From assembly GCA_943736015.1 (NCBI GenBank), contig OX031071.1, positions 27,357,619-27,421,618 of the forward strand: a stretch of 64,000 bases of DNA. The letters are read 5' to 3'. Of this stretch, positions 34,391-53,895 are shown one piece after another. This DNA is from Tridacna crocea (taxonomy: Eukaryota; Mollusca; Bivalvia; Cardiida; Cardiidae). A program made the position numbers and the translations under genes. Under the pieces are notes generated by a model. It saw only the letters and a list, made by a program, of their open reading frames with translations, searched no databases and was not told the DNA's origin. Each line of letters opens with the position of its first letter. Position 1 is the stretch's first letter.

Positions 34391-34619
34391 TTAACCCATT
34401 ACCAGACAACAATATTTTAGACTGGTCCAAATTGAAAGCATTTGCAGACTACAAAATAAAAGTGACTGAAAATTTGAAATTTGTTTTGTGAAGGGTAGAA
34501 AACATTGTAGGAAAAGGAGAAAAGGCTGGTTACCTGCATTTTCTCCTTTTCCCAAAATGTTTTCTGAAGGCTTCTTTCTCCGGGGCGTCAAAAGTAGGGA
34601 TTGTGTGGTAATGGGTAAC
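34391..34619 (+). mobile_element. Hairpin MITE, near intact
   Basis: Left TTAA, right TAAC; hairpin with few mismatches. Confidence 0.9.
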
Positions 34620-34631
34620 CATGCTCTGAAG

Positions 34632-34698
34632 AAAGATATTGCTACATTGTAAAGACTTTAACTTGTAAAAGTCTTTTACAGTGTAGCAATATCTTTTT
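34632..34698. repeat. 67-bp hairpin
   Basis: aaagatattgctacattgta and the mirrored tacagtgtagcaatatcttt enclose a short loop. It lies just after a MITE in the lectin intron. Confidence 0.8.
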
Positions 34699-34917
34699 CA
34701 TATAAACATTCTTGACAGACAAAAGGGTACATGTATTTCAAATATTGAGATTTTTCTTTGATAGAAAATATTTTTATGAGTATTTTGTCTGTTTTCCACA
34801 ATATTTTCAAAGTGTTTTTCCCTGAAGTTTATGAAGAATTAAATAGATTGGTAAAGTTTAGCACCAATGAAATTGCCTGTATGCCTGTTTTACTTCATTA
34901 TGTTTTTCATAAAACAG

Positions 34918-35024
34918 GAGAGAAACCACAGATGTTTGGCTTGGTGCCAAGGCAGATGATAAGCGTGTGTGGCGCTGGGGAGATGGTACCAACTTGGGGG
35001 ATGGTTGGACAAACTGGAAGTCAG
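34918..35024 (+). CDS. Exon: C-type lectin domain, part 2
   Basis: Acceptor aaacag and donor gtataa; 107 nt, phase 2 in and 1 out. It encodes VWLGAKADD and WRWGDGTNLGDGWTNWKS, the conserved WIG and the W.W.DG...Y..W loop of C-type lectins. Confidence 0.87.
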
Positions 35025-35160
35025 GTATAAAACTTACATGTAGCAGTTTTTGAAATGGAACCGTATTGCTGATCATGCAAGGATTTCAGTCAACAAAAGC
35101 AAAAACAGGTCTCCAATATTAATTTTGTCGAACAGTTACTGTTGTTGTGCTGAATTTGTG

Positions 35161-35370
35161 TTAACCCTTTCCAAAACAACAAATTTTAGACTTTTTCATA
35201 ATTATACAGAACCCTTTCAGATGATAAATTCAGAATTGGTAAAAATGAACTCAGGTTCACTGGTAGGGTTGAAAACACCTTGGAAAATGGAGAAAATGCT
35301 TGTTACCACTTTGTTTTCAAAGGCTTTTTTTTCTGGGGTAGAGAAAACCCAAAATTGTTGGATAAAGATA
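35161..35370 (+). mobile_element. Hairpin MITE, right arm shortened
   Basis: Left TTAA; right arm reduced to ctttgttttc. Confidence 0.78.
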
Positions 35371-35404
35371 TAGAGGATATTTGTTTATAGTTGTAAGTTT
35401 AAAA

Positions 35405-35575
35405 TTGTAAAAGGAATATTATGTAGTAGTAACTTACCTGGTGCTTGTATTTAATTCTAGCTGTGTGAGAAATTTTGACATGGAGTTCAACCTTCAGTCT
35501 CATGGCGTGATGTAAATATAAGCACTAGAAAAGTTGCTACAACATAATATTCCTTTTATTATGTAGTTACGAGTT
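35405..35575. repeat. Small inverted-repeat element
   Basis: aaaaggaatattatgtagta at 35408 is mirrored by tgctacaacataatattcct at about 35534. The spacer is about 100 bp. Confidence 0.55.
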
Positions 35576-36009
35576 TCAGCGACAACATTTTGAATTTATT
35601 GGCATTTTATTGGAAAAAAATAGCAAGCAAAATGAGACAATTAATAATGCGGATGGTTGTAACTCTGTTTGTATTAATGACAGGTTGATATTACAGGTAA
35701 CATTTTGACCAATCAAATGGCAACTCAATGCATGCTTAGTCTGTACATGCGATACGCCATCATACCATATTTGGGACCGTATTTCACTGTGTATAGATAT
35801 AGTTTTGTTTTCTGTCGGGTGTGTTATTTCATCTAACTCATCACATGTATTTCATCCAGGAAAATTTACCTGTTCAATGTAAAAAACTCAAATTCTATTA
35901 TTTCATGCTTTTTACCCTTTCTTGGGGGAACTTAATCAAAATCAAGTACACTTCTTTTTAGTTATTCCCTGTGGCGTACCCTCTCCTCATAGCAAGGCAT
36001 TAAAATATT

Positions 36010-36355
36010 TTATTATACTGCAAAGAAATTTCTCGCGATCTGATTGGTTAACATGCCGGGAACATAATATCATGTTCCCTGGCAAAAACCAGTTTCCCTT
36101 TTGAGTGCCCCGTAAACATCACTACACGTGCAATACATCATCCAAAATGGCGCCGCCGATCGATCATCAAACTGCACATTTATTCACCAAACTGCACGTT
36201 TTAGTGACGTCAGATTCCAGTGACGTCAGTTTTCATTGAATTGGGGCACACAGAAGGGAATTTCTATTTTGTTAGCATACTCGATTTGTGAAATTATAAA
36301 ACAGGAAAATTTCGCTTAACGCGCTCTGAAAGGGTAAAACTTTGCAGTATAATAA
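36010..36355 (+). mobile_element. MITE with TTATTATACTGCAAAG ends, second copy
   Basis: Perfect 16-bp inverted ends, ttattatactgcaaag and ctttgcagtataataa, with a 346-bp total. It is inverted relative to 31349-31703, so the two could pair as transcribed RNA. Confidence 0.78.
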
Positions 36356-36359
36356 ATTC

Positions 36360-36503
36360 GTTGTACGGTCAGGTGGCAGGGGACTTGGAAACTTGTTCAC
36401 GGCTGAGGTGAATCATGTCGCCACCTCGCCTTCGGCTTGGGGCGACATGATTCACCACAGCCGTGAACAAGTTTCCAAGTCCCCTGCCACCTGACTGTAC
36501 AAC
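36360..36503. repeat. 144-bp near-perfect palindrome
   Basis: Left arm gttgtacggtcaggtggcag and right arm ctgccacctgactgtacaac, running inwards to aatcatgtcgcc / ggcgacatgatt around an 18-nt loop. The outer arm also flanks the MITE at 31349 (gactgtacaac), so it belongs to the same repeat complex. Confidence 0.85.
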
Positions 36504-36807
36504 TAATAATGTCAAGTCCAAGAAATGTAAAGTAAATTAAGTCATATTTCCATCTAGTTGTGAGGTACAACCATTTTACCGAGGTCACTAGAATGCGTAA
36601 GAGCTGTTTTGTGTTCAGTTGAAGAGTTAGATTATAAAGATGGGTATTTTCACTGGTCATATGAAATGTTGAAAAATTTTTTACCGATATTTTTCGATAA
36701 CTTACCGGAAAGCATGAAATGATAAAAACTTATTTATTTTAAATCTGATGTGAAACAAGTTTTCACAAATCATACTAGTCATTCTCAATGATTCATTTCT
36801 GAAAACC

Positions 36808-37036
36808 TTAACCCTTTACCAAACCACAAAATTTTAGACTGGTCCAAATTTAAAGCACTTGCAAACAGGGGAATAAACGTAACTGAAAAATTGAAATTTG
36901 TTTCCAGCAGGGTAGAAAACATTGTGGGAAAAGGAGAAAATGCTGGTAACCAGCATTTTCTCCTTTTCCCACAATGTTTTCAAAAGGCTTCTATCTCAGG
37001 GTCCTAAAAACCAGGGATTGTTTGGGAAAACCTTAA
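36808..37036 (+). mobile_element. Hairpin MITE, intact
   Basis: TTAA both ends, 229 bp, perfect hairpin around ctggtaaccag. Confidence 0.93.
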
Positions 37037-37184
37037 GCATTGTGTAGGAGGTTCCCAAAGTTGACCACGGCTCATTACTGGATTTAAACTCCGCGCCATT
37101 TCCTGGTTGTTGGATATTACAACCAAAATACTGTGTTACTAAGGTGGTTTTGCCACACTCCAATTTGCAGAAAAGTCAATTGGT

Positions 37185-37408
37185 TTTTGCCTTTACAACA
37201 CAATCCTGACGTTTAACAACTCTTGGAAAGAAAGCTTAGAAAACATTGTGGGAAAAGAAGAAAATGCTGATATTCAACATTTTTTCCTTTTCCCACAATA
37301 TTTTCTACCCTTCCCAAAACAAATTTGAAATTTGGCATCACATTTAATTTGACATCTGCAGCTGGTTTCAGTTTGCTTTGAATTTTTTTTTTGTTTGGCA
37401 AAAAGTTG
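37185..37408 (-). mobile_element. Hairpin MITE, diverged ends
   Basis: Both arms present; centre altered to ctgatattcaac. Confidence 0.83.
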
Positions 37409-37525
37409 GATTTTTTCCTTTTCAAAGCAACACTGTTGTGACTGAACAGTTATAGTTTGCAAAGGTCATATGCATGGCCAATCTGTTCAAGCTTTGCTGA
37501 ACAAAAACTTTCTGTTACATTTCAG

Positions 37526-37642
37526 GACAACCCAACAACTGGGGTAGAAATCAGTACTGTGCAGAGCAGCAAGCCAAAAACACATGGGACGACATCACCT
37601 GTACCCATAAAAGTAATGTTGTGTGCGAGTACCAGTTTAATA
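37526..37642 (+). CDS. Exon: C-type lectin domain, part 3
   Basis: Acceptor tttcag and donor gtaagt; 117 nt, 1-1 symmetric. It begins GQPNNWGRNQYC and ends WDDITCTHKSNVVCEY. The calcium/sugar site reads QPN, a mix of the mannose-type EPN and galactose-type QPD, and the WND motif is WDD. Carbohydrate specificity is therefore unclear. Confidence 0.85.
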
Positions 37643-37714
37643 GTAAGTTTTTTTCATGTCAGATGATCTGTTCTTCTTCTTTGAGAAAATATCTTATGGT
37701 GTTGGAACATAGTC

Positions 37715-37848
37715 ATTTGGCTCAAATTGGCAAAATCAGTCCAGGATATATACTGAAGGATGCCAGAAACACAGAAGCATTTTCTCCTTGTCCCACAATG
37801 TTTTAACAAGCCTGTTGAAAATATTTAATGTGTGGTAGAGGATTAACC
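37715..37848 (+). mobile_element. Hairpin MITE, decayed
   Basis: ttggctcaaattggcaaaat, then gcattttctccttgtcccac; ends TTAA 37845-37848. Confidence 0.65.
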
Positions 37849-37974
37849 CTTGTAGTACAAAATTACTGAAGAAGAAATTTTCAAGGAGTATTGACATGAA
37901 GATAGGACAATTGCTGTTTTTGACAATGTATGTAACAAGAAAGTAGAGTTTGGTTTAAGATCACACTGCACGTT

Positions 37975-38095
37975 CAGGGAAAAGGTAGAAAACAATGTGC
38001 AAAACAAGAGAACGCCAGTTGACCAGATTTACTCCTTTTCTCACAGTCTTTTCCTCTTGGTTGTTAACTTGGGTCATTGGTAAGGGAAAAGTAAA
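37975..38095 (+). mobile_element. Hairpin MITE remnant
   Basis: aaaaggtagaaaacaatgtg and actccttttctcacagtctt; lies about 30 nt before the module 1 ShKT exon. Confidence 0.6.
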
Positions 38096-38126
38096 GTGAT
38101 AAAAGTTTTCTTGTACTGTATTTCAG

Positions 38127-38249
38127 AGACAGGTTTGTGTAATGATCAGATAGGCAACTGTATGGACATTTTGATGGAGAATCCAGAGATGTGTACACAG
38201 TACCCGGTGTTTGCGACCCACGATTGCAAAACTACCTGTGGAGTTGGAG
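38127..38249 (+). CDS. Exon: module 1, ShKT domain
   Basis: Acceptor atttcag and donor gtctct (non-consensus but GT); 123 nt, 1-1 symmetric. Five ShK cysteines are seen, ending CKTTCGVG; the sixth is the first cysteine of the next exon (VCK). This is the first of four exons of identical 123-nt length. Confidence 0.82.
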
Positions 38250-38264
38250 GTCTCTATTTTTGTA

Positions 38265-38460
38265 ATTTCTCTTTTTATACCCCTCATAATTATGTGAAGT
38301 GCGGTATACTGGAATTGCCATGGCTTTCTGTCTGTCCGTCTATCTGTTGACACAAATTTTTCTAGTGAAATGCTCTGACAGTTTTTCAGGTACTGAATTA
38401 AAATGTAGACACAATTTTCCTACATATATGAAGTTGTGCATGTGAAATTTTTGCGACCCT
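38265..38460 (+). repeat. Fragment of the 'gtatactggaat' repeat
   Basis: Contains atacccctcataattatg, cggtatactggaattgcc and tctgtctgtccgtc, as at 8840 and 45290. It follows the module 1 ShKT exon directly. Confidence 0.55.
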
Positions 38461-38469
38461 GCTGTGATT

Positions 38470-39726
38470 TGTTAGCTACACTGGCCGAAGGCCAGCAGGC
38501 TTATGTCACGGCCCGGTGTCAGTCGTGCATCCGTCCGTGCGTGCGTGCACGGTGCGTTAACTTTTATTTCAAACATCTTCTTCTCGGAAACTACCCATCC
38601 AATTTGATGAAACTTCACTGAAATGATCCTGACCTGGTCCTCTTCAAAATTCCTTGAAAGAATTAAAATCTTTCATAAACTGAGGTTGCCATGGCAACAA
38701 AACTGAAAAAAATTTAAAAATCTTCTCCTCTGAAACCATAAGGCCTAGGGCAACCAAATTTGGCATGTATCTTTATCTAGTAGACCTCTACCAAGTTTCT
38801 TCAAATAATAGCCCTGGGGTCAAAATTGGCCAAGCCCTGGGGGGTCACAAGTTTTATATGGGCTTATATAGCGAAAACTTAAAAATCCTTCTGGTACCTA
38901 GCCATAGGGCCTAGGGCTACCAAATTTGGCATGTATCTTTATCAAGTGATTGTCTACCAAGAGTGTCCAAATGAAAGCCCAGGAGTCAAATTTGGCAGTG
39001 CCCAGGGGTCACAAGTTTTATATGGGCTTATGTAGGGAAAACTTTAAAAATCTTCTCATACCAAGCCATAAGGCCTAGAGCTACTCAGATTTGTATCTAC
39101 CTTTATCAAGTGGTTGTCTACCAAAGGTGCCCAAATTATAGCCCTGGGATTAAATTTGGCCCTGTCCTGGGGGTCACATGGGTTACATGTGCTCATATTG
39201 GGAAATTTTTAAAAATCTACTTGTACCTACATGTAGCCATAAGGCCTAGGGCTACCAAATTTTGCATATAGTGGGCCTCCACCAGGAGGGCCCAAATTAT
39301 AGCCTTGGGGTCAAGTTTGTACTCACACCAGGGGTCAGAAGTTTTACATTGGCTTTTATGGTGAAAACTTTCTAAGTCATCTTGTTACTAACCGTAATAA
39401 AGACTAGGGCTACTAAGTTTAGCCTTGTCTCATGGTTTTCATGTTTTACAGGGCCTTTTATTGAGAAAACCACACATTATAGACCTGTATTATTTGGTAT
39501 CTGGCTTTATCTGGTGGACTTCCACCAGGATTCAAGTAATTATAGCTTTGCAGTCAAAATTTGCTTTGCCTGGGGGTGACAACTTTCTTGTAGGATTTTA
39601 TAGAAAAAAAAAATTGTACGCCCTCAAGTTTGAAACCAATTGGCCAAATACAGTAATGTTTGGCTAGTAGTGTTTTTACTTATTAGCCAGTGGAGGGATA
39701 CAGGTTTATCATGGCCTTCGTGTTGT
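38470..39726 (+). mobile_element. Large dispersed repeat, same family
   Basis: Begins gttagctacactggccgaag and ends near tttatcatggccttcgtg. Internal units align with those of 9956-11716 in the same order. Confidence 0.76.
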
Positions 39727-40009
39727 GGAATTATCTCCCCTTGAACTTTTCTCAATTTTTACTTTTGTACTAAACCATTCGGCATTCTGTGACAAAGACC
39801 TGTTTTGTGACAAGGACCTGGTAGGGGGTATAATCACATTTAGTGAAAGCTCTTGTTTGTATTTTATCAAAAACTTACATATTTAAAGGTTATGATTATT
39901 GAAAGGTTGCAAGAGAAATGTTTATTTTGGAAAGTTAAAAAATATTGAAGCAATATTAGTCATTGTGCAGAATAAACTTTCATGATGAGAAGATATGCAT
40001 ACATGTACA

Positions 40010-40432
40010 TAACTCTTTACCACTCTATCCCAAGTTTTAACAACCTAAAAAAAAAGCCTGCTGAAAACATTGTGGGAGAAGGAGAATAATTATGCTCTTT
40101 TTCCCACAAAGTTTTATAACCTATTAACACAGTCCTGACTTTTAACACCCCTGTAAAAGGAGCCTATTGAAAACATTAAAGGGAAAGGAGAAAATGCTGG
40201 TAACCAGCATTTTCTCCTTTTCCTACAATGTTTTCTTCCCATCCTAAAACAAAATTCAATTCTTTAGTCACTTTGTCATCTGCAAATGCCTTCAATTTGT
40301 GCCAGTCTATAATATTGTTGTTTGGTAAAGAGTTAAAGACCAGTTCTATTATTTGAGTAACATTTAATTTGTCATCTGCAAACTCTTTCAATTTGGATGA
40401 TTCTACAAAATTGTTGTCTCATGAAAAGTTAA
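40010..40432 (-). mobile_element. Hairpin MITE interrupted by another copy
   Basis: Left part to 40127 and right part from 40333 form one minus-oriented copy; the insertion at 40124-40336 sits in a TTAA within it. Confidence 0.82.
40124..40336 (-). mobile_element. Hairpin MITE nested in another copy
   Basis: TTAA at both borders; hairpin perfect at the centre; same orientation as its host. Confidence 0.87.
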
Positions 40433-40483
40433 CTGCAAAGAGTGCTAAATTTGAGCATTTGTTATGACTTTAGTAAATATACT

Positions 40484-40717
40484 TTATTCCTTTACCACAC
40501 AACCTTCACCTTTAACACCTCTGTGAAAGAAGCCTTTTGAAAACATTGTTGGAAAATGAGAAAATGCTGACCAGTAACAGGCATTTTCTCCTTTCCCCAC
40601 ATTGTTTTCTTCCCTATTGAAGACAACTTCAACAATTTTGGTCACATTTGATTTTTTCCTGTACATGTGCTTTTGGTTTGGACAAGTCTAAAGTTTTGTT
40701 GTGTGGTAAAGGGTTAA
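40484..40717 (-). mobile_element. Hairpin MITE
   Basis: Right TTAA; centre altered (ctgaccagtaacagg). Confidence 0.84.
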
Positions 40718-40806
40718 AAAAACAACAACAAAAAAAAAAAAACCCAATAGATGATGTGCACTTTCTGTGAAACTCTACATACAATTATGTAATAATTATC
40801 TTTCAG

Positions 40807-40898
40807 TCTGTAAGACTGACATACAATGTGTAGATGATTCTCTTCCTCAATATCAAACAACAAGAGTTTCTGGGTTGGATAATTCTAGTCCAGGAGAG
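40807..40898 (+). CDS. Exon: module 1, sushi part a
   Basis: Acceptor tttcag and donor gtaaga; 92 nt, phase 1 in and 0 out. It encodes VCKTDIQCVDD, then TRVSGLDNSSPGE: the closing ShKT cysteine, then the first sushi cysteine in CxDD, then a glycine-rich loop. Confidence 0.82.
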
Positions 40899-41237
40899 GT
40901 AAGACCTATATCTATATCACTTTTTCTTGCATTATGTCTCTACTGCTTCTCATGGACTCAGACTATAAAACCTGGATGTGTTTTATCTTTTGTGTTTTAC
41001 ATGAATTTTTATTTGTATGATTTTCAATGGGACGCTTACATCATGGGCAAACTCAAAAGCATGAAATAACACATGTGTAAGATTTGCACATGTAATCCTG
41101 TAGATAAATTGTACTATTTGTGCTTCTTGTGCGACATCATCTAAGTTTCTTTAATCATACCAGCATTACCAGAAATGCATTAACCACCCAAAATACAACT
41201 ACATGTATGCACACAAACCTGACTCCTTATTGGATTA

Positions 41238-41457
41238 TGTAACCTTTAATGTGGACTGTTAAAATAGAAAACATTTACAGAAACCAAGTGAATGTGGTTC
41301 AGATGGTGGAAGTTTTCTCTGTAAGGGTAGGAAATGCCATTTGAAAAAGAAAAAAATGCTGGCAACTAGATCTAGCATTTTCTAACTTTTCAAACAATAT
41401 TTTCAGCTTTTTTGTTCAAGCTCACTAAAATCTTTAATTGTTTAGTAGTGGGTTAAG
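41238..41457 (+). mobile_element. Hairpin MITE, decayed
   Basis: aaatgctggcaactagatctagcattttct keeps a shifted hairpin centre (gatct); right TTAA. Confidence 0.7.
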
Positions 41458-41627
41458 TAGAAGAAAGTTTGTTAATCTAGTACCTATGCTGATATGTAAT
41501 TTCTAATATATGTTTAGTGTTAATGTAAAAACACAAAGTCATTTGAATTGTTTCTTTTAATTCCCAAAGACAAGAACTGTCTTACGAACATGAAAGTTTT
41601 CAACAAATTCATAGCTTAAATACAAAC

Positions 41628-41725
41628 CGCACCTGGCAGGATTCGAACCTGTGAGGAAGAGATCCTCTTTTAATGAGGTTCAAAAGACCAACACCTTAAC
41701 CACTGAGCAAAAGAGCATTCTCCCT
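41628..41725 (-). repeat. tRNA-like (SINE head) fragment
   Basis: Minus strand: tgctcagtggttaaggtgtt as A-box region and ggttcgaatcctgcc as B-box, with a long variable part like a Leu/Ser-type tRNA. Considered SINE-derived because stems are imperfect. Confidence 0.48.
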
Positions 41726-41729
41726 AACA

Positions 41730-42137
41730 CAGTTGTTAGATATTGATTTTATGCTGGAAGAAGCAATGCAGAAAGGAAGGAGTGACCTGCCATAACAACC
41801 GTCCATAAAAAGGCAAGCTAGACATCTTATGTGAAAAATATTGCAATCAATTTTATTCCTACTTTTATTCTAGATTTGGAAACTTACAAAATTATTGTCT
41901 GAACACTTTCAAATACAGAAAACACTAGTATATGCATATTAAAAATGTTTTGTGACTACTGGCCATTTGATGAACGGTGTCATGTAATTCAAATAGATTA
42001 TAATTTAAATTCTTGTATTATGACCAAATTTGGGACGTAATATTTAAATCGTTTTTTAATTTTTTCCTTGTTTCCTTATTATATTATACTCTTTTTTAAT
42101 TATTTAGTACTATAAAAGTAAATATCTCCTTTTACAG
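41730..42137. other. Intron sequence, nothing recognised
   Basis: AT-rich text running into the acceptor of the module 1 part-b exon; no element identified. Confidence 0.45.
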
Positions 42138-42243
42138 TATGTTAAATATGAATGCAATAATGGGTATATCCAGAAATCTGGAGATGCTGTCCGGATATGC
42201 TCTACATCAGGGAACCTTACTGGAACCAGTCTCATCTGTGAAG
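42138..42243 (+). CDS. Exon: module 1, sushi part b
   Basis: Acceptor tttacag and donor gtgaga; 106 nt, phase 0 in and 1 out. YVKYECNNGY and then VRICSTSGNLTGTSLIC give sushi cysteines 2 to 4. The canonical Trp between cysteines 3 and 4 is absent in all four modules. An intact MITE begins 18 nt downstream. Confidence 0.83.
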
Positions 42244-42260
42244 GTGAGATTTTTTTATTG

Positions 42261-42470
42261 TTAACCTATTACCACACAATCCATACTTTTGACACCCCTG
42301 AGAGAGATGGCTTTAGAAATCATTGTGGGTAAAGGAGAAAATGCTGGTTACCACGATGTTTTCTACCCTTCACAAAACAATTTTCAATTTTTGTGTCACT
42401 TTTATTTTGTCATCTGCAAATGCTTTCGATGTAGACAAACCTAAAATTTTGTTGTTTGGTAATGAGTTAA
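42261..42470 (-). mobile_element. Hairpin MITE lacking part of one arm
   Basis: TTAA both ends; right arm reduced to accacgatgttttc. Starts 18 nt after the module 1 part-b exon. Confidence 0.87.
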
Positions 42471-42600
42471 ATCAATAGATCTACCCTTACAAGGCTATCA
42501 TTGGTAATCTGGCTGATACATCAATAACTGGATAGCTTTTTCAGCCTAAAGGTATTGGCAGTAGCACTTATTTCATTTACCCTTTTTTTGCTTTTTTGGG

Positions 42601-42822
42601 TTAACCCATTACCATACAAAGCTGACTTTAAACGACCCTTGGAAAGGAACCTTTTGAAAACATTGTACAAAAGGGATGGTTACCAGCATTTTCTTCTTTT
42701 GCCCACAATGTTTTCTGCCCTATCAAAGAAAAATTGTACCATTTTAGCCACACTGAAATGATCATCTGCAAATGAATTCAATTTGGACAAGGCTAATATT
42801 TTGTCATCTGGTAATGAATAAA
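42601..42822 (-). mobile_element. Hairpin MITE
   Basis: Left TTAA; left arm shortened to tgtacaaaagg. Confidence 0.83.
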
Positions 42823-42894
42823 AGTCAGTTAATTGGTACTAAAGACAGTGTCATTGAAACACAAACTTATCTGGTAAAGGATAATATCATATTG

Positions 42895-43021
42895 AACTTG
42901 ATTAAGAAAAAGCCTGTAAGGAAAAAAGAAACTGTTGGTAGTGTTTTCTCTTTTCCGACAGTGTTTTCAAAAGTTTTTCTTCTTTGGGTTGTTTAAGGTA
43001 GAGATTGTTTGGTAAGGATTA
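42895..43021 (+). mobile_element. Hairpin MITE remnant abutting a splice site
   Basis: ttccgacagtgttttcaaaa and gagattgtttggtaaggatt; its TTAA ends 18 nt before the module 2 ShKT exon. Confidence 0.72.
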
Positions 43022-43039
43022 AATTTTTCTTTTTTACAG

Positions 43040-43162
43040 CCACTGATGTATGTAGTGACTTCCTAACTGATTGTAATGAAATTCTGCAACAAAACCCCAA
43101 AATGTGTAAAGAAAACTCTGACTTTGCAGCCAGATATTGTAGAAGTACATGTGGTGTGGGAG
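43040..43162 (+). CDS. Exon: module 2, ShKT domain
   Basis: Acceptor ttttttacag and donor gtagga; 123 nt, 1-1 symmetric. VCSDFLTDC and CRSTCGVG give five cysteines, the sixth lying in the next exon. A MITE remnant ends at the TTAA at 43018-43021, so its edge lies 18 nt before the exon. Confidence 0.84.
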
Positions 43163-43387
43163 GTAGGACTATACAAGTAGATTCTTTGTTATTCATTGGT
43201 CAGGCCAAAAGAGGTGCAATCAGAATGAATCATTGTATAAATAGTTCATAGAAAATTATGGATTCTATATTTAAGGAATCACACAAATTCTCATTAGCAA
43301 ACCCATTTGATTTTACCATTCAGAAATCATTGCCCCTTGAAATTTGATGATCATTTCTGACTTTGATAGAGTAGAAAATATTGTAGG

Positions 43388-43617
43388 TTTTACTCTTTAC
43401 CAAATGACGGAAATTTAGACTTGTACAAAGTAAAAGCTTTACAGAGGACAATATATATATGATTTAAAAAATTGAATTTTTTTTCTCGTAGGTTATAAAA
43501 CTTTGTGGGAAAAGAAGAAAATGCTTGTTACCAGCATTTTCTCCTTTTCCCACAATGTTTCCGTAGGCTTCTCTCTTAGGGTCATTAAAAGTATGGATTG
43601 TGTGGTAAAGAGTTTTA
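43388..43617 (+). mobile_element. Hairpin MITE
   Basis: Hairpin around cttgttaccagc; TTTA-type borders. Confidence 0.85.
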
Positions 43618-43688
43618 AACCAGATGACAAATTTAGACTTTAGCCACAAAAAAATTAGGGTTTGGCTCAGATAACAAAAATAGTTTCC

Positions 43689-43917
43689 TTAACCCTTTAC
43701 CAGACGACAAAATTTTAGCCCTGTCCAAATTGAAAGCATTTGCAGAGGACAATTTCAGTGTGGCTCAAATGGTGCAATCGTTTATTGATGGGATAGAAAA
43801 CATTGTAGGAAAAGGAGAAAATGCTGGTTACTAGCATTTTCTGCTTTTCCTACGATGTTTTCTAAAGACTTCTTGCTCAGGGTCATCAAAAGTAGAGATT
43901 GTGTGGTAATGGGTTAA
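43689..43917 (+). mobile_element. Hairpin MITE, intact
   Basis: TTAA both ends, 229 bp. Confidence 0.91.
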
Positions 43918-44036
43918 AACTAGAAAACATTTTCTGACAAGAAAAATGTGCTGCTTACCAGCACCCTTTTTTCACAATGTTTTCAAATTTTGTTCTCAGC
44001 TTTGTTTGACTACATGATTGTTTGGTAAAGGGTTAA
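43918..44036 (+). mobile_element. Hairpin MITE remnant before the 60-bp repeat
   Basis: gctgcttaccagcacccttt and tgtttggtaaagggttaa; the repeat array starts 5 nt later. Confidence 0.72.
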
Positions 44037-44040
44037 GGAT

Positions 44041-44460
44041 AGTACTGTTCAAGTCAATTCAATACTTTTAGATTGTGGCACCGATGTTACCTGTCCAGAT
44101 AGTACTGTTCAAGTGAATTCAATACTTTTAGATTGTGGCGCCGATGTTGCCTGTCCAGATAGTACTGTTCAGGTCAATTCAGTACTTTTAGATTGTGGCG
44201 CCAATGTTACCTGTCCAGATAGAACTGTTCAGGTGAATTCAGTACTTTTAGATTGTGGCGCCAATGTTACCTGTCCAGATAGAACTGTTCAGGTGAATTC
44301 AGTACTTTTAGATTGTGGCGCCAATGTTACCTGTCCAGATAGTACTGTTCAAGTGAATTCAATACTTTTAGATTGTGGCGCCAATGTTACCTGTCCAGAT
44401 AGTACTGTTCAAGTCAATTCAATACTTTTAGATTGTGGCACCAATGTTACCTGTCCAGAT
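44041..44460 (+). repeat. 7 x 60-bp tandem repeat spanning an intron/exon junction
   Basis: Seven head-to-tail units of exactly 60 bp differ by only a few bases. Each holds about 31 nt of intron end (finishing aatacttttag or agtacttttag) and the first 29 nt of the following exon (attgtggc...tccagat). All units stay open in the gene's frame because 60 is 20 codons without a stop. Each unit read as protein contributes two cysteines and, in most, an NVT sequon. Confidence 0.93.
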
Positions 44461-44523
44461 GACGGAACCAATACCAGTTTGACAATCAGGGAACATGGAG
44501 CTGATAACCTGAATATTGGACAG
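44432..44523 (+). CDS. Exon: module 2, sushi part a, preceded by repeated acceptors
   Basis: Using the last of seven identical-type acceptors (aatacttttag), the exon is 92 nt with donor gtatta, matching its counterparts in other modules exactly. It encodes DCGTNVTCPDD, then REHGADNLNIGQ. Six further acceptors 60, 120, ... 360 nt upstream are phase-compatible and stop-free, so longer forms adding 20 residues per unit are possible (see the 60-bp repeat). Confidence 0.83.
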
Positions 44524-44559
44524 GTATTAACAGCTCGAACACATTGTAGACTTTAACCA

Positions 44560-45600
44560 TCTACCATGAGTTTTTCTTCAATTGTATTGGAACTTTGCAC
44601 ATATACTGATCATATATTGAAGATTTGAAACACACAATTTTCAAGTGTCAAATCCCCCCGTTGAGGAATTATCTCCCCTTGAACTTTACATTTTTTTCCC
44701 CGCATGCATCTGTATATGAAATACTTGTAATTTTGTAATGCAAACTCCTCCTACAGTTTTCCTTCAACTGTATTGAAACTTTGCCTATATAGTGATTATA
44801 TATTGAAAATTTGCAACATGCTATTTTCAAGTGTCAACTCCTCCTGGTTGAGGAATTATACCCCCCTTAAACTTTACACTTTTTTTCTCCACATCCATCT
44901 GTATATGAAATACTTGTAACTTTGTAATGCAAACTCCTCCCACAGTTCCTTCTATTGTATTGAAACTTTGCACATATACTGATAATATATTGAAGATTTG
45001 CAACACGCAATTTTCAAGTATGATTGACTATCAATTCCTCCTAGTTGAAGAATTATCTCCCCTTAATCATGAGACTTTCTTTTCTTCATATCCATCTGTC
45101 TATGAAATACTAGTAATTTTATGTTGCAAACTCGTCCTACAGTTTTCCTACAATTGTATTGAAGCTTTGCACGTATATTGATCATATATTGAAAGTTTGC
45201 AAGATGCATTTTCCGAGTGTTAACTCGTCGTGGTTGAGGAATTGTTGCCCCTTGAAATTGATACTTTTTATACCCCCAGCTAAACGATTGTTTTAGGGGG
45301 TATACTGGAATAAACCTGTCTGTCCATCTGTCCATATGTGTGTCTTTCTGTGAACAAAGACAAGTAATTTTGTGTCTTGAACTTCTCCTACAGCTTTGCT
45401 GCTAATGTATTGAAAGTTTGTTGATACATTGATTACATACTGAAGTTGTGCAAGGCACAGTTTTCAATCACCTTCTCTCTTTGATTCCAGGGTAATCTAC
45501 CCTTGACCTTAAAACATTTTTTTGTTAAATTGCCTGTTTCTGTCAAAGCCCTGGTGAGGGTGTTAAGTCACATTCAGTGATGGCTCTATTTTTTTTTTCA
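44560..45600 (-). repeat. Dispersed repeat, tandem ~170-180-bp units
   Basis: Four to five units carry aaactcctcctacagttttc, actttgcacatatac and gaggaattatctcccc. Near 45270 an outward-facing gggggtatactggaata start follows, as in the 8840 copy. Orientation is uncertain. Confidence 0.6.
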
Positions 45601-45684
45601 TATCTGGGCAAGATTGTTTTGTCCAAAACATTGGATGGCCAGTTTCTTCCACACGTTTGTTTCAAGGTAATATCATCCCAACCC

Positions 45685-45840
45685 TCACCCCTTTTCCAAA
45701 TGGTGTAATTTTAGACTCGTCCAAATCGAAAGCATTAGCACATACTAATCAAATTTAGACCAAATGTAGACCAACTGATGATCTGAATTGTCTAAAAAAA
45801 AAAACAAAGAAAGGAGAAAACGATGGTTATCTGCATCTTT
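45685..45840 (+). mobile_element. Hairpin MITE, decayed left part
   Basis: ttttagactcgtccaaatcg and aaggagaaaacgatggttat. Confidence 0.62.
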
Positions 45841-45844
45841 TTTT

Positions 45845-46480
45845 TTCTCTTTGATGATATTAACAGCCGTCTTCATTTTGGTCATCAAAAAAGAGCTAGT
45901 TTTGTTCGGAGCACTCAGTTTTACAGTCAGAAAAAAAATATCCAACATTGCAATTTCATGTTTTTTTTTTTTGCTTTCTTTATATATCCTACATAAACAG
46001 ACAATTAGGATCTTAGTTATATAAGTATGTTTATTGATCTGCATTGCATTCAAAGGGCAGTCTGATCTTGATCTTTCATTATCTTCAAAAGTGACTTTTC
46101 TAATCCCTAAACAACACAGGTCATTTTATTTGAGTCATTCGAATGAGCAAGAGCATTGCTACAGTGAATCTTGGGCTTTTAATCTTAAATATGGACGATG
46201 AGAATCAATTAATATGGAGTAGCTAATCAGACAAACATTTGAGTTTTTACACTTAAAGCACTGAACTAATGAACTAGATATGTGAAACATTAAAAAGCAG
46301 TTTTACTACTACAGGGCCACTGCTGATTTGATTAGAATATCTTAGAAAACTGGCCTAACAAATCGAAGATCTGATTGCATGTTCTATGCTCTCTGGTTTG
46401 AATCTGCGCTCTCTGAAAAAGCTTTTTTACCTAGTGAGTTGTTCAGACACGGAGAATATGAAGTAAGGCAAGCTTATTTG
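45845..46480. other. Intron sequence, nothing recognised
   Basis: T-rich and A-rich tracts only, plus a short piece (ggcagtctgatcttgatct near 46055) of the hairpin found at 54635. No exon or complete element was seen. Confidence 0.5.
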
Positions 46481-46824
46481 TTTGCACTTTCACTTTTTTT
46501 CCTCTATGAAAATGGTCTTTTCAACATTACCCATGAAATTACTAGATCTAAATGTTGAAATTCTTTTAAATGATGAAAAAACACTGTGAGGAAAAAGAGA
46601 AAATCCTGAATACATGCAGTTTTTTTCACTACATTTTAGGGCCACACAGGATTGTTTAGTCAACATTAAATAGCCTGATTTCAGTCTTAAGAATATCATC
46701 AAGAAGAAAAGTGGGTGGAAGGAGAGGAAGAGGGGCTATGAAAATGATTTATGCCATTACCACGCAATCCCTACTGTTGACGACCCTGAAAAAGAAGCCT
46801 TTAGAAAACATTGTGGGGAATGAT

Positions 46825-47043
46825 TTAACCCATTACAACACAATCCCTACTTTTGATGACCCTGAGAAAGAAGCCTTTAGAAACATTGTTGGAAAAGGAG
46901 AAAATGCTGGTTATTAGCATTTTCCCACAATGTTTTCTACCCGTCACAGAACAAATTTTAAATGTTCAGTCCCTTTTACCTTGTCGTCTGCAAATGTTTT
47001 TGATCGGACAGACCTAAATTTTTTTCGTTTGGTAATGTGTTAA
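46825..47043 (-). mobile_element. Hairpin MITE
   Basis: TTAA both ends; preceded directly by a 70-bp left-end fragment of another minus copy (46755-46824). Confidence 0.88.
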
Positions 47044-47740
47044 TTTTTCACCTGCTACAATCTTTGTCCCTCACAGTCTCACCTCGCTAATAATAATCGA
47101 CTAACAGCCGAACACTAGTTTAAACTTACAGCTGTTTCCAGTTGCATATACATGTACAGTAGTTTGCTCCAAGGCAAAACAATCTAAATGTCAAATTATC
47201 TTACAGCAATGTTTCTGGAAAAAAACTCTGTTCCATTGCAATGTTTATCCCTGCTCAAGACCAGGTGACCTATAATATTTTCAACACCCACTACATGTAT
47301 GAGCAGCACTTGAGTCGTTAAGACTCAACCAATCCTTGTAACAGGGTGATTATACAACCTGATCAAAGGATCGCTTGAAGTTTGCCAAATAATTTTGGAC
47401 AGCAGATGACTAGAAGATTTGCTTACATAATCTGATATTTATTGATTATCTCAAGATTGTTTCATTCATAGGTTATTGAAAGGGTTAAAAATTCAATGGA
47501 ATAAAGTCACAACAGCTAGTATTAGTGTTATAAGACTGTAAGTAAAAGCTGTCACATGTTGCAGTTATATCAGATTGCCCACAGCAGACAGGTTTTAAAA
47601 ATCTGTGGTCTCTCTAATCATCTGGCTCCACCGACCAATTAGAAATAAAATGTTATGGTAGAAATCTACAACATACTATTAATTGGTTTTGGTATTGTCA
47701 GTAATATGCACATTGGTCCCTCCTTTCATCAGCTTGTTTT
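47044..47740. other. Intron sequence, nothing recognised
   Basis: No repeat family, exon or structural signal was identified on either strand. Confidence 0.45.
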
Positions 47741-48914
47741 TAGCTCACCTGAGCACAACGTGCTCAAGGGGAGCTTTTAGGGTCACAGGGTGTCCGTCGT
47801 CCGTCAAGCGTCGTCAACAATTCTTTAAACATCAACTCCTCCTAAACCCCTGGGCGGATTTGGACCAAACTTGGCAGGAATGTTCCTTGGGAGGTCCTCT
47901 TTAAAAAAGTGTTCACAGAATTTGATTCTGTCAAAAACTCTGGTTGCCATGGCAACCAAAAGGAATTTTTTAGCAAATTCTTTAAAAATCTTCTCCTCTG
48001 AAACTGCTGGTCGGATTTTGAAATAATTTCACAGATATGTTCCTTGGGTGACCCTTTTCAAAAATTGTTCGTGAAATTTTGATACGTCAACAAACATGGC
48101 TCTGGTGAATGGGGGCTTCTTGCACTATACAAAAATGAAGGAATTCTTAAAAAATTCTTCTTCTCTGAAACCGCTGGTCAGATTTTAATATAATTTCAAA
48201 GAGATGTTCCTTGGGTGACCCTTTTCAAAAATTGTTCGCGAAATTTTGATTTGTCAAAAAATGTGGCTCTGGTGAATGGGGGCTACTTGCAATATAGGGA
48301 AATGAAGAAGTTCTTAAAAACTCTTCTTCTCTGAAACCGCTGGTCAGAATTTGAAATAATTTCACAGAGATGTTCCTTGGATGACCCTTTTCAAAAATTG
48401 TTCGCGAAATTTTGATTCTTCAAAAAACGTGGCTCTGGTGAATGGGGGCTACTTGCAATATAGGGAAATGAAGAAATTCTTGAAAACTCTTCTTCTCTGA
48501 AACCGCTGATCAGATTTTGAAATTATTTCACAGAGATGTTCCTTGGGTGACCCTTTTCAAAAGGTGTTCATGAAAGTTTGATTAGTCAATAAACATGGCT
48601 TTGGTGAATGGGGGCTACTTGCACTTTATGGCCATGAAGGAATTTTTTAAAATTCTTCTCTGAAACGGCTGATCAGGTTCTGAAATAATTTCACAGAAAT
48701 GTATCTTAGTTGACCCTTTTCAAAAATTGCTCAAAATATTTTGATCCATCAAGAAACATGGCTCTGATGGCTGTGGGCTATTTGCACTATACAGACATGA
48801 AGAAATTCTTAAAAATTCTTCTTCTCTGAAATGGTTGTTTAGATTGTGAAAAAATTGGCTGTGTTCGTCTCAAAAATTCAGGTGAACGAACCAGGGCCAT
48901 CTTGGCCCTCTTGT
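47741..48914 (+). mobile_element. Dispersed repeat 'ttagctcacctgagc' family
   Basis: Begins tttttagctcacctgagcac and ends caggtgaacgaaccagggcc then atcttggccctcttg. The start ctcacctga and the end tcaggtgaac form an inverted pair. Four to five internal ~165-bp units share gttccttgggtgaccctttt and ggctctggtgaatgggggct. Familiar to me as a bivalve repeat; class unresolved. Confidence 0.75.
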
Positions 48915-48979
48915 TGTGTATGTTTGGTACAGATATCAGTTCAAGCCAGCAACTTGATACTTATTTTTGTCATCCACAG

Positions 48980-49085
48980 TATGTTGTGTATGGCTGTGAG
49001 GCAGGATCACTGAAGACCTCTGGGAACTATGTGAGGGTGTGTCAGTCTACTGGTTCCTTATCTGGATCTCCATTGAAATGCTCCT
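48980..49085 (+). CDS. Exon: module 2, sushi part b
   Basis: Acceptor tccacag and donor gtatgt; 106 nt, phase 0 in and 1 out. YVVYGCEAGSLKTSGNYVRV and the final PLKCS parallel the other part-b exons. It follows a large dispersed repeat that ends about 65 nt upstream. Confidence 0.83.
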
Positions 49086-49120
49086 GTATGTTATTTTGTT
49101 TGTTCTACTCTAGCTGATTG

Positions 49121-49562
49121 AACTCTTTACTGGATGACAAATTTTAGGCTTGTCCAAATTGACAGTATTTTAAGAGACAAATTTCACAAATTAAGTTTCA
49201 CTAAGTGATTGAATGGAGAAAACATGGGTAAAAGAGAAAGTGCTGTATACCAGCATTTTGTACTTTTCCCAGAATATCTTTAACCCATTACCACACAATC
49301 CCTACTTTTGATACCTCTGAGAAAGAGGCCTTTTGAAAACACTGTAGGAAAAGGAGAAAATGCTGGTAACCAGCATTTTCTCCTTTTCCTACAGTGTTTT
49401 CTACCCTTCCCAGAACAATGTTCAATTTTTCAGTCACCTTTGTTTTGTTGTCTGCAAATGCTTTCAATTTGAACCAGTCTAAAATTTTGTCGTGTGGTAA
49501 AGAGTTTACAGGCTTCTTTCTTGGGGTTGTTAAAACTTGGGATTGTTTGATAAAATATTAAG
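49121..49562 (+). mobile_element. Hairpin MITE interrupted by an opposite copy
   Basis: Left part 49121-49278 and right part 49505-49562 (caggcttctttcttggggtt...) belong to one plus-oriented copy. Confidence 0.8.
49279..49507 (-). mobile_element. Hairpin MITE nested in opposite orientation
   Basis: 229 bp, left TTAA, right TTTA; perfect hairpin; inserted inside 49121-49562. Confidence 0.88.
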
Positions 49563-49565
49563 TTT

Positions 49566-49680
49566 TTAACCCTTCTGCAAAATTATAGACTTGTCCATAT
49601 AGAAAGCATGTACAGACAATGTTCAAGTCTTTTCCATCAGGATCATTAAAACTCAGAATTGATTCTGGAAGAGCTTACTG
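49566..49680 (+). mobile_element. Hairpin MITE without hairpin
   Basis: ttagacttgtcc-like left part joined directly to the right part caggatcattaaaactcag. Confidence 0.6.
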
Positions 49681-49685
49681 TATAT

Positions 49686-50700
49686 GAGGGTTGTCCCAAA
49701 ATTATGTGACAATTTCAATAGCAAAAGAAAATGAAATGCTACAAATGCAATTTTTCGAAATGTTTTTATACATTTATACCAAAGATATGTTAATAGAAAA
49801 TCACACAACAATCTGGACAAAAAAGAAAATTAAAGCATAAACACCACAACAAGTACCCACACTGCGGTGCACCTCAAGCGATAATTAACAATGTCAATGT
49901 TAAGTTTAAGAGCTTTTGTAGAGGTATTCTTCGTGAAATTCAACATATTTGCCATTTCTTTTAATCCATGGCTGCTGAAAAGCTGTTCTAAATGAAATTG
50001 CTGTCAGATATCTGTAAAAAGCAAATGCAGCAGACACCAGCTCATTGCTGGAATCAAACTTGCGACTTTGTAAATCGCTGTGGAAAGCTGTCCAAGTTAT
50101 AAATCTAAGGAGAAATTTTTGCCTTCTTTGACGGAGGGGTACGAGGTGTCTACCAAAGATATGAATATTGCTCCCCCCCGGGTTTGAAGTGGTTTAACCA
50201 CCTCTCATCTGCTATAAAAAGAGGGTCCAACAGAATGTTGCCTGCTTTAACTTCAGCAAGAAACTTTAGGGGCGTGTGAACTTTCTTCTCTTTGTTATTA
50301 TCAGATATTAAACATGCAGCCCAGCTCTCGTAGACTTGTGTCATGTTCAGTTTATCCTTAAATATTCAGTGGAAAGAAGACATTGAAGCTATCTCTCTGA
50401 GTGTTAGTTTCCGATCTCAAAAACAACATCTTTCACCATATCGAACGACTCTTCATTGAAGGAAATTGGCCCACCGTTTCGTGCTTTCTCCTCTTTCTAG
50501 CGTTCACATGTCCTTAAGTCTGTTTTACTGCCATGGCACATGTAAACAGGTGCCCGAGTAATGTTTTTAACTTTTCAGAACACCAAATTTGTTCTATAGT
50601 CTAGTGTAATTCTGAGATCGGCACAAAGTTTTATAACTGTCGGCTGTGCTATGCAATCTTCTGACGTCGTCTTTTCACATTTCCTATTTTCTGCCGGTCT
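49686..50700 (-). mobile_element. Second mariner-like relic
   Basis: The left end reads gggttgtcccaaaattatg, close to the ends of the element at 5388. On the minus strand 50150-50344 encodes IADERWLNHFKPGGEQYSYL, matching the mariner first-Asp region (GDETWVHHF.PE..QQS..W). Frames are broken on both sides, so the copy is dead. No clear right end was found. Confidence 0.65.
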
Positions 50701-50942
50701 TTTTTATTTGTTTGTATACTGTCTGTTATTTACTCGATCACATTCAAATTTTCTGTGATGACACCAAAGTTTCAGAAAAAAATGTCCATGTAATATGAAG
50801 CAGAAATGATATCAACTAATGAAAATATTCTTACATGATTGGAGTTCATACAAAAATGCACATGACTTGCGCCAGCAAACAACACCTACTTGTCAATTTT
50901 GTGAATTTAAAGTAAAAATAAAGCTTATATTTCATAAGAGAC

Positions 50943-51151
50943 TTAACCCTATACTCCATAGATACTCATTTCCACGCATTGCTTGTAGGAGCCTTTGGAA
51001 AACATTGTGGCAAAAGGTGAAATTGCTCGTGTCACAATGTTTTCTATGCTATCAAAAAGTCTCATATACACATTAGAAATGGCTTCATCCTTGCTGTTAT
51101 TCAGGGTTAATTAGAGATACCATAAAAATGCCTTATGGGGTAAAGGGTTAA
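50943..51151 (-). mobile_element. Hairpin MITE, sister subfamily
   Basis: TTAA both ends; same flanks as 18432 and 57576 (tagatactcatttc, gagataccataaaaatgcc); hairpin centre shortened. Confidence 0.85.
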
Positions 51152-51342
51152 TTTAAAGTGAAATAACATCTTCATGGAGGAAATGTGTGAAAATGAATAT
51201 CGTGACGATAAAAATGGCTCATTTATGAAATTTGTCACGGAGTTTTTTGGAAAACCCTCGTACATGTATCATGCAATGAATTTGCAGTGACTGGGAAAGG
51301 CTTCCACCGTATGCCAGTCACATTAAAATCTAAAATGTCCCT

Positions 51343-51570
51343 TTGTTTCCGCTACCGAACAACAAAATATTAGGTTTGTCCAAATCAAAAGCATTTGCAG
51401 ATGACAAAGTAAAAGTGACTGAAAATTTGAAATTTGTTTTTTGAAGGCTAGAAAACATTGTGGGAAAAGGAGAAAATGCTGGTTACCAGCATTTTCTCCT
51501 TTTCACACGATGTTTTCTTAGTTTTTTTTCAGGGTTTCTCAAAAGAAGGGAGTGTGTGGTAATAGGTTAA
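51343..51570 (+). mobile_element. Hairpin MITE
   Basis: Right TTAA; near-perfect hairpin. Confidence 0.88.
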
Positions 51571-51589
51571 ATGATGAAGGTAGTCCACT

Positions 51590-51717
51590 ATAGGGTAAAA
51601 AACATCATGAGAAAAGGAGAAAATGCTGGTTATCAGCATTTTTTTCTTTTCCAACAATGTATTCAAAAGCTGTCTTCCTCATGGTTAATAAGTCTTGATT
51701 GTTTGGTAAGGGATTAA
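51590..51717 (+). mobile_element. Hairpin MITE lacking its left third
   Basis: Starts just before the hairpin (tagggtaaaaaacatcatg); right TTAA shared with the next copy. Confidence 0.83.
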
Positions 51718-51942
51718 CCCATTACCACACAATCCCTACTTTTGAAGCCCCTGAGAAAGAAGCTTTTAGAAAACATTGTGGGAAAAGGAGAAAATGCTTG
51801 TAACCAGCATTTTCTCCTTTTCCAACAATGTTTTCTATCCTTCACAAAACAAATTTCAATTTTTCAGTCACTTTTATTTTGTCGTCTGCAAATGCGTTCA
51901 ATTTGGACCAGTCTAAAATATTGTCGTTTGGTAATGGGTTAA
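51714..51942 (-). mobile_element. Hairpin MITE, intact, next to an exon
   Basis: TTAA both ends, 229 bp; its right end lies 26 nt before the module 3 ShKT exon. Confidence 0.92.
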
Positions 51943-51968
51943 CTATATTAAACTGTTTTACAATCTAG

Positions 51969-52091
51969 CCATGGTACAATGCGAGGATATGATAACTACA
52001 TGTGAGCAACTTCTGGAGGAAAATCCAGAGATTTGTGAACTGTATTCAAGATATGCCTGGAAAAATTGCATGAAAACTTGTGCTTTTTCTG
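51969..52091 (+). CDS. Exon: module 3, ShKT domain
   Basis: Acceptor aatctag and donor gtaggt; 123 nt, 1-1 symmetric. QCEDMITTC and NCMKTCAFS give five cysteines with the sixth in the next exon (ECK). A complete 229-bp MITE ends 26 nt before the exon. Confidence 0.84.
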
Positions 52092-52198
52092 GTAGGTGAT
52101 TACTTTTTCTAATAGATCAATTATTATATTTCTTTGAATTAAAGAAAGGTCAAATGCTAAAGAAATAAAAGAAATGATAATAAGAAATAGAGGATAAT

Positions 52199-52323
52199 CA
52201 ACAGGGCGTGTGTGATGTTAAAAATCTGTCACTAGAATGAGGATTGATGCGGTTAAAAAACAAGTCAGAAGGTCAAACCCCATTCTAGTGACAGATTTTT
52301 AATATGACACACCACCAGTTGAT
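52199..52323. repeat. 125-bp inverted repeat
   Basis: Left arm with gtgtgatgttaaaaatctgt and cactagaatg; right arm cattctagtg and acagatttttaatatgacac. About 40-bp arms around a 41-bp spacer. Confidence 0.85.
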
Positions 52324-52572
52324 TGTTTTATTTATTATATTCCTAATTCTCCCTTTGTTTGCAAATAATTATCAAGAACAGTATGTATGCATGTATCAGA
52401 CTTTGATGTACATGAACTAACACATGATCTATTTTTGACTGAAGCAGCTGATGCAACAGATAACGTAATGCTCTAGGGTATCGTTGCGTCATGCATTTCT
52501 CTGTAAGAGGTTGTGAACTGTTTTGCACCTTTACAATATAAAACCAGCCATATGAATTTAAAAGATGAAACA

Positions 52573-52755
52573 GTTAACCCTCTCCAAGATGACAATTTTA
52601 AGACATTTCGATATTGGAAAGGTGCCCAAATGACAAATACTAAATTGGGACAATTTAAGATCTAGAGTTTTCTGATAGGATATAAAAGATATTATAGAAA
52701 AGGGAGAAAATGCTGGTTGGTAGTTTTTTCTTGTTGTTTTCAAAAGCTCTCTCCC
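52573..52755 (+). mobile_element. Hairpin MITE, decayed
   Basis: gttaaccctctccaagatga to gagaaaatgctggttggtag. Confidence 0.68.
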
Positions 52756-53172
52756 ACACAAGCTATTTTCTTTTCTCAAAATGTGTAAAAGATTTCTTCC
52801 ACAAGGTAGTTAACTCAGGGTTGTTGGAAACACTGTAGCAAAAATGTTTTCTCTGTGCTTTTGTTTACCAAAGATGTTTAAAGTATATATAGAGACAGAA
52901 ATATTAGACTGTGAGCAATATAGCAAAAAAGTAGTTCCAGTAAACATTCTAAAACCATATCACCACCAGTTGAATTTTTAGGTAGAATAATGTTTTTACA
53001 TATGTGAGATTTATCTAAAGCAAGAAGTGTTAACCAATGTTCAGTCTGCATAGACTGGACAGGCTGATCTGGGTCAACAACTTTTTGCAGGTTTATTTTG
53101 CCGGTCCCTTTTCATAGAGCACCGCTCACTTATGATTACACCTTAGTTATCTGAGGGGCTGCCTCTTTACAA

Positions 53173-53398
53173 TTAATTCTTTACCAAATGACAAAAATTT
53201 TTCCTGAAACCAAATTGAAAGCACTTGCAAACGAGAATTTTATTGTGGCTCAAATGGTGCAATATTTCTTTGTCAGGGTATAAAACATTGTGGGAAAAGG
53301 AAAAAATGCTGGTTACAGCATTTTTTCCTTTTCTCACAATGTTTCAAAAGGCTACTTTACTAGGATCATCAAAAGTCTGCACTGTGGTAAAGAGTTAA
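53173..53398 (+). mobile_element. Hairpin MITE, intact ends
   Basis: TTAA both ends; small deletion at the hairpin centre. Confidence 0.89.
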
Positions 53399-53414
53399 GT
53401 AAAACATATACTGG

Positions 53415-53560
53415 TATTTTGGATTTGTCCAAATTTGAAAGCAAATTAAAACAAATTTGCATACAGTAAATTGCATGGTGCTAAAATTGTGGAAAATAAG
53501 AAAAGACTAGTTACCAATATTTTCATTTTTTTTTTCACAGTGAATAGGGCTCATTGACTC
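53415..53560 (+). mobile_element. Hairpin MITE, decayed
   Basis: ggatttgtccaaatttgaaa and agactagttaccaatatttt. Confidence 0.58.
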
Positions 53561-53604
53561 TCAAGAGTTTTTATCCAAAGTTTAGAATATTAGTTGGGTA
53601 TTTC

Positions 53605-53895
53605 CATTTATTTATTGTTGCTACCAGTTGCCCATCTTAGCAATGCCCCCAGAAGACGGTTAGTTGTTACAGGGGATAGTGCAAGGATACAGGTCAAAAC
53701 TACTGAGAGCATTGCCTGGTTCTTTAACCTGCTTGGCGTATAGCACCGTCACATGGGATCTCTGTTTAATGTCTCATCTGAAAGACTATTAGTAATTTTA
53801 GTTGCCCAGCTTGGGATTCGAGCCCACAACCTGTAGTGACCTGAAACATTGTGTTCCTACACTCTACCTACTGAGCTGTATCGGCTGGTGTTTAG
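53605..53895 (-). mobile_element. tRNA-derived SINE of another family
   Basis: Minus strand head: cagctcagtaggtagagtgt, then ggttgtgggctcgaatccca, then a body with gacattaaacagagatccca and a second half reaching gggcaactggtagcaac. The body differs from the 29386 family. Confidence 0.58.

Follow-up and report, generated by a model that had tools for sequence, protein, structure and literature searches.

A gene for a C-type lectin domain protein of the clam Tridacna crocea carries a mirage-type minisatellite, an array of seven 60-bp units that has grown across an intron-exon boundary and whose frame is open throughout. The array lies head to tail at positions 44041-44460 of the window, the 64,000-nucleotide stretch of genomic DNA analysed here and numbered from its first letter. 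Each unit contains a TTTTAG acceptor, and the last of them (44431/44432) is probably the one used for most of the mRNA.

By comparison within the window, and in our own reading of the sequence, we found 17 exons of one plus-strand gene (Table 1), three of which form the C-type lectin domain. Two further ShK-sushi modules (5 and 6) lie downstream of the window, within 30 kb. When the exons are joined with the last acceptor used for module 2, the protein has 662 residues, and Pfam profiles recover both Lectin_C (PF00059, 60.8 bits against a curated cut-off of 22.6) and Sushi (69.3 bits) in it. Scored singly, modules 1, 3 and 4 reach the sushi cut-off (PF00084, 20.7 bits) with 24.4, 26.1 and 23.3 bits, while module 2 stays below it with 18.7. 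The sushi module profile has 30 PDB matches, all of them complement-system proteins going by their names. We use the label ShK-like because no stretch reaches the curated cut-off of the ShK profile (PF01549, 20.9 bits), the best being module 2 with 20.5. A protein search with residues 230-782 of a 782-residue version gave one match (E 1.2e-4, 7992 candidates scored), with 29% identity over 23%, to a protein of 956 residues whose Pfam list is ankyrin-type; it was rejected as a relative. Scanning the window for Rfam families and for tRNAs gave 0 matches.

Table 1. Positions, in window coordinates, of the array, its candidate splice sites and the surrounding features.
Feature	Position	Strand	Remarks
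Gene, span of the 17 exons	30662..63999	+	in order, a ShK-like exon, a sushi exon, three exons for the C-type lectin domain and four ShK-sushi modules
ShK-like exon, module 2	43040..43162	+	123 nt; next exon upstream of the array
Interspersed repeat (TAACCC...GGGTTA) and a degraded further copy	43690..44036	.	degraded copy ends directly before the array
Array of 60-bp units	44041..44460	+	per unit 31 nt of intron end and 29 nt of exon start, most likely by origin
First of seven TTTTAG candidate acceptors	44070..44071	+	others end at 44131, 44191, 44251, 44311, 44371, 44431
Donor-like sites	44170..44298	+	CAG|GTCAAT (unit 3), CAG|GTGAAT (units 4, 5); after 44172, 44232, 44292; spacing 60 nt
First of three extra in-frame TTCAG candidate acceptors	44181..44182	+	9 nt upstream of TTTTAG; ends at 44182, 44242, 44302
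Last of seven in-frame CCAG candidate acceptors	44457..44458	+	unit position 58
Sushi-a exon, module 2, most likely ancestral form (last acceptor)	44432..44523	+	92 nt; entered in phase 1, left in phase 0
Sushi-b exon, module 2	48980..49085	+	106 nt; downstream neighbour of the array

The start of the exon was set by comparison with the sister modules. With the last acceptor used for module 2, the sushi-a exons of modules 1 to 6 measure 92, 92, 92, 86, 92 and 92 nt; all six are entered in phase 1, and five carry a cysteine in their second codon. The ShK-like exons have 123 nt in modules 1-4 and 132 and 144 nt in modules 5 and 6, and the sushi-b exons have 106 nt in the three complete ones of modules 1-4 (the window stops inside the fourth) and also in modules 5 and 6. 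Given the lengths of the sister exons and their phase 1 entry, the acceptor at 44431/44432 most likely represents the ancestral state, and each unit is by origin most likely made of 31 nt of intron and 29 nt of exon. The initial annotation had described the units as an intron end plus an exon start repeated in frame, and the sister exons of the same gene now anchor that anatomy. Two features of a mirage are present: tandem units of a size between roughly 10 and 160 bp, and a unit that spans the intron-exon boundary, set here by the 92-nt sister exons and the kept phase, and includes the splice signal.

Tandem Repeats Finder (TRF) run on the window called the array at 44038-44460, with a period of 60, 7.1 copies, 95% match, no indels and a score of 734, in agreement with the seven units first proposed; the call reaches 3 nt further upstream, over a GAT at 44038-44040. 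The units differ pairwise at 0-6 of their 60 positions. Units 4 and 5 are identical and units 1 and 7 are one site apart, so that like edges enclose a like centre, a pattern that supports the mirage assignment. Seven of the 60 positions vary, four in the intron half and three in the exon half of the unit; two of these sites are synonymous and five non-synonymous, where a selection-free expectation is 26:71:3 (synonymous to non-synonymous to stop). The differences thus fit neutrality, with coding constraint not visible in them at the little power that seven sites give. The frame is stop-free on translation across all seven units, as had been claimed, while two of the finer claims needed correction: the intron end aatacttttag is found in four of the seven units and reads agtacttttag in units 3-5, and the NVT sequon, described as usual, occurs in five of the seven units and in four of the six upstream ones. 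A genome-wide DNA search with the array (1,048,827,098 bases in 31 contigs of one assembly) matched a single place, the array itself.

Seven units in frame amount to one coincidence and not to seven, because copies inherit both the multiple-of-three length and the openness of the first. We took the chance of a multiple-of-three length as one third. The frame is open over the 31 nt upstream of 12 of the 16 other acceptors of the gene (13 of 17 with that of the array), and 57% of random 30-mers of the window are open in a given frame. At these rates, roughly one such repeat in four or five should be both multiple-of-three and open. Among six hand-picked arrays of the window, five are both multiple-of-three and open (the 60-bp array, those of 36, 42 and 54 bp, and a stretch of 28 bp built from 12-bp units) and one of 61 bp is not. 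Fifteen arrays, the longer ones among 31 TRF rows, were checked against the 17 exons, and the 60-bp array alone overlaps an exon edge. The 36-bp minisatellite (6.9 copies, 25901-26149) lies before the first exon found in the gene, and those of 42 bp (5.2 copies, 60820-61036) and 54 bp (16.1 copies, 62238-63107) lie in an intron of the same gene. Arrays with a period of 20-200, at least 4 copies and at least 85% match number five in the window, the 60-bp array included, and three in a 200-kb sample of the genome.

An interspersed repeat of about 228 bp (TAACCC...GGGTTA; for example 43690-43917), with an inner palindrome, occurs along the whole window. Its 73 intervals add up to 20% of the window; in 20 arbitrary 10-kb genome stretches its share is 10.6%, and three of these stretches lack it. 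Across 30662-63999 it stands near exons more often than near random intron positions: 7 of 17 acceptors have a copy at most 100 nt upstream and 5 of 16 donors one at most 100 nt downstream, against an expected 10.8% each; no clear excess is found at 20 and 50 nt, the thresholds having been tried together.

From the first to the last TTTTAG acceptor, the predicted exon lengths are 452, 392, 332, 272, 212, 152 and 92 nt. All seven are in frame, as the initial annotation had it, but they are not alone: the array has 31 AGs, of which 21 keep the frame, and every one of the 21 is stop-free (7 TTTTAG, 7 CCAG, 4 CAAG, and the 3 TTCAG created by a G in units 3-5). Use of the CCAG at 44457..44458 would remove both exon-start cysteines. 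The donor-like AGGT sites of units 3-5 could possibly, judging by their sequence, delimit in-frame mini-introns.

We built an acceptor profile from the 16 other acceptors of this one gene. Scores range from -0.3 to -3.9 for the seven TTTTAG sites and, leaving one out at a time, from -5.1 to 12.6 for the 16 others. Units 1 and 7 have equal scores, unit 3 a slightly higher one and units 2 and 4-6 lower ones. Within the array the CCAG sites (2.1 to 3.3) and the TTCAG of unit 3 (3.0) outscore the TTTTAG sites, as do various AGs elsewhere in the same intron. Pyrimidines fill 8-9 of the 16 positions before the acceptors of the array and 9-13 before the other 16. Since the profile is built from only 16 sites and 46% of the 3513 AGs of the window equal or exceed the score of the last acceptor, it supports a single statement, that the acceptors of the array appear to be rather weak, though inside the range of the real ones of the gene. 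From 43977 onwards, the sole consensus branch site (yTnAy) is TTGAC at 44009, ahead of the whole array and 63 nt upstream of the exon start that the first TTTTAG would give, with none inside the array; at 5 of the 17 acceptors, that of the array included, the 65 nt examined hold no consensus branch site. An RNA fold of 43990-44530 had a z-score of -1.83, with 3 of 100 shuffles equally stable, and was given no weight as evidence.

We propose that the array began as a single ancestral copy with GAT on either side, grew by tandem duplication through slippage or unequal exchange, and was then homogenised in its middle. The acceptor at 44431/44432 would rebuild the 92-nt exon of the sister modules, and the upstream ones would be used little or never. 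Several points count against this preference for the last acceptor. The seven acceptors are nearly identical, and local sequence therefore gives the last one no advantage; other in-frame AGs of the array outscore TTTTAG; copied signals are said in PMC3087553 to be possible cryptic splice sites; and, with the branch site at 44009 preceding the array, scanning could meet an upstream acceptor first. In the scanning model as presented in PMC1431707, the AG first met past the branch site is the one used, with exceptions close to the branch site. Each use of an upstream acceptor would insert whole 20-residue units, with two cysteines apiece, between the sixth ShK-like cysteine and the first sushi cysteine.

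The roles of cysteines in the ShK-like and sushi folds are general background, and we take the cysteine in the second codon of sushi-a to sit where the sixth of the ShK-like module would, and the next one to be the first of sushi. With this placement, extra units would lengthen the linker between the ShK-like and sushi domains, and the cysteine sets of both modules would stay complete. Because mis-splicing stays in frame, the array is probably tolerated by selection.

The initial annotation went further and saw in the seven acceptors a possible mechanism for length diversity; its reading as a whole is partly supported, the anatomy being right and the length diversity a possibility. If several acceptors were really used, an isoform ladder would result, with 0-6 extra 20-residue units, partly N-glycosylated and cysteine-paired; we consider this possible but unlikely. 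Speaking for it are the near-identity of the acceptors, the 21 of 31 AGs that are in frame and open, and a cysteine count that stays even at two per unit. It also finds parallels elsewhere: in human genes, 9 of 10 boundary repeat changes in coding sequence preserve the frame, and for 66% of such intron changes there is also a transcript in which the repeat is retained, as reported in PMC2812944, and in a prawn C-type lectin family function is affected by repeat number, according to PMC7536079. Against it stand the amphioxus mirages, whose splicing seems to be regular according to PMC3087553 and PMC3902484, the weak-side acceptors and the lack of visible coding constraint between units; moreover, an in-frame unit is what about one such repeat in four or five would have anyway. 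A bolder version would make the array a length dial, in which unit number varies between individuals and each transcript picks an acceptor, or drops units through the 60-nt AGGT mini-introns of units 3-5, to place 0-6 partly glycosylated, cysteine-paired spacers between the ShK-like and sushi modules. As a whole we think this improbable; its polymorphism in copy number is, taken separately and by analogy with the amphioxus cases, plausible.

We also considered a coding repeat inside a single exon, entered at the first acceptor and adding a fixed insertion of 120 residues to the module. No stop interrupts the frame between 44029 and the end of the exon, and the consensus branch site stands 63 nt ahead of that exon start, but the exon would then have 452 nt, about five times its sisters, three of the four AGs between branch site and first TTTTAG are out of frame, and the unit differences look neutral. 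We set this reading aside on the sister exon lengths, keeping it as a very improbable rival. Equally slight is the chance that the array is an assembly artefact and the true chromosome carries another number of units: misassembly is possible for tandem repeats and is reported for one mirage in PMC3087553, whereas here seven variable sites tell all units apart save the identical 4 and 5, 99.96% of the genome lies in 18 contigs, and the array is only 420 bp long.

In favour of the last-acceptor reading, the array has at least one partial counterpart in this genome. The genome contains at least 149 matches to the C-type lectin and at least 150 to the sushi domain, and we sampled 20 loci of each, mostly from the upper parts of the lists and leaving out many near-copies. 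The 40 loci yielded TRF rows of period 10 or more, 8 in the lectin and 5 in the sushi loci. One of these 13 rows, and thus one of the 40 sampled exons, crosses an acceptor; crossing was judged from the sequence itself for three loci (L065, L035 and L038) and by position for the rest. The crossing row, at L065 (G000:C5:53228110-53228810), is a duplication of about 124 bp (1.8 copies, 86% match) at the acceptor of a sushi exon. Both copies end in ttacag|ATTGC, and a stop is met in the upstream one. Boundary duplications are therefore not unique to the array in this genome, and that of L065 is not open. Among the listed sushi matches we also observed a row of equal scores, about every 4 kb, on C5 at 53.16-53.22 Mb.

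The closest relatives of the array are described in amphioxus, where the word mirage is used in this sense for Adh3, the globins BflGb6 and BflGb9, TnC and PGBD5 (PMC3087553, PMC3902484). In BflGb6 the unit consists of the intron end and the start of exon 2, two haplotypes carry 6 and 3 units, and the repeat is reported to be unstable, with a homogenised centre and excluded edges; RT-PCR suggests that regular splicing is undisturbed, and the copied signals could serve as cryptic splice sites (PMC3087553). The Adh and TnC mirages of lancelets copy splice sites without aberrant mRNAs as far as PMC3902484 describes them, and repeats of 60 and 108 bp at splice sites are reported in the same paper, on PGBD5. 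The clam array shares with these the minisatellite-like tandem units over an exon-intron boundary and the edges that escape homogenisation. It differs in having an open unit with a length divisible by three, so that extra units would be in frame; the units of BflGb6 (150-160 bp) and Adh3 (10-72 bp) are compared here by length only.

Other systems share single features with the array. Repeats that lie on exon-intron boundaries of duplicated human genes give alternative transcripts, with splicing altered by repeat number and coding cases mostly in frame; those cases are RNA-backed and are described as formation of novel introns (PMC2812944), whereas the clam repeat carries an existing acceptor. 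The Rlec C-type lectins of prawns likewise combine a lectin-type gene with short tandem repeats, variable in number in the prawn; there the repeats sit in the second exon and the description in PMC7536079 mentions no copying of a splice site, while the clam array copies an acceptor. The likeness to intron gain by tandem duplication of AGGT, as outlined in PMC3443670, lies in the AGGT sites at 60-nt spacing in units 3-5, which bound candidate introns in the clam. Taken together, the amphioxus and human cases show that this kind of structure is already known and supply precedents for silent and used outcomes alike. What the clam contributes is a frame-preserving mirage-type structure in a genome unlike that of amphioxus, and therefore a clean natural test of the choice that the spliceosome makes when tandem acceptors are almost identical. 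The array would equally test whether boundary minisatellites turn intron into protein, for if its upstream acceptors were used, repeat number would become protein length.
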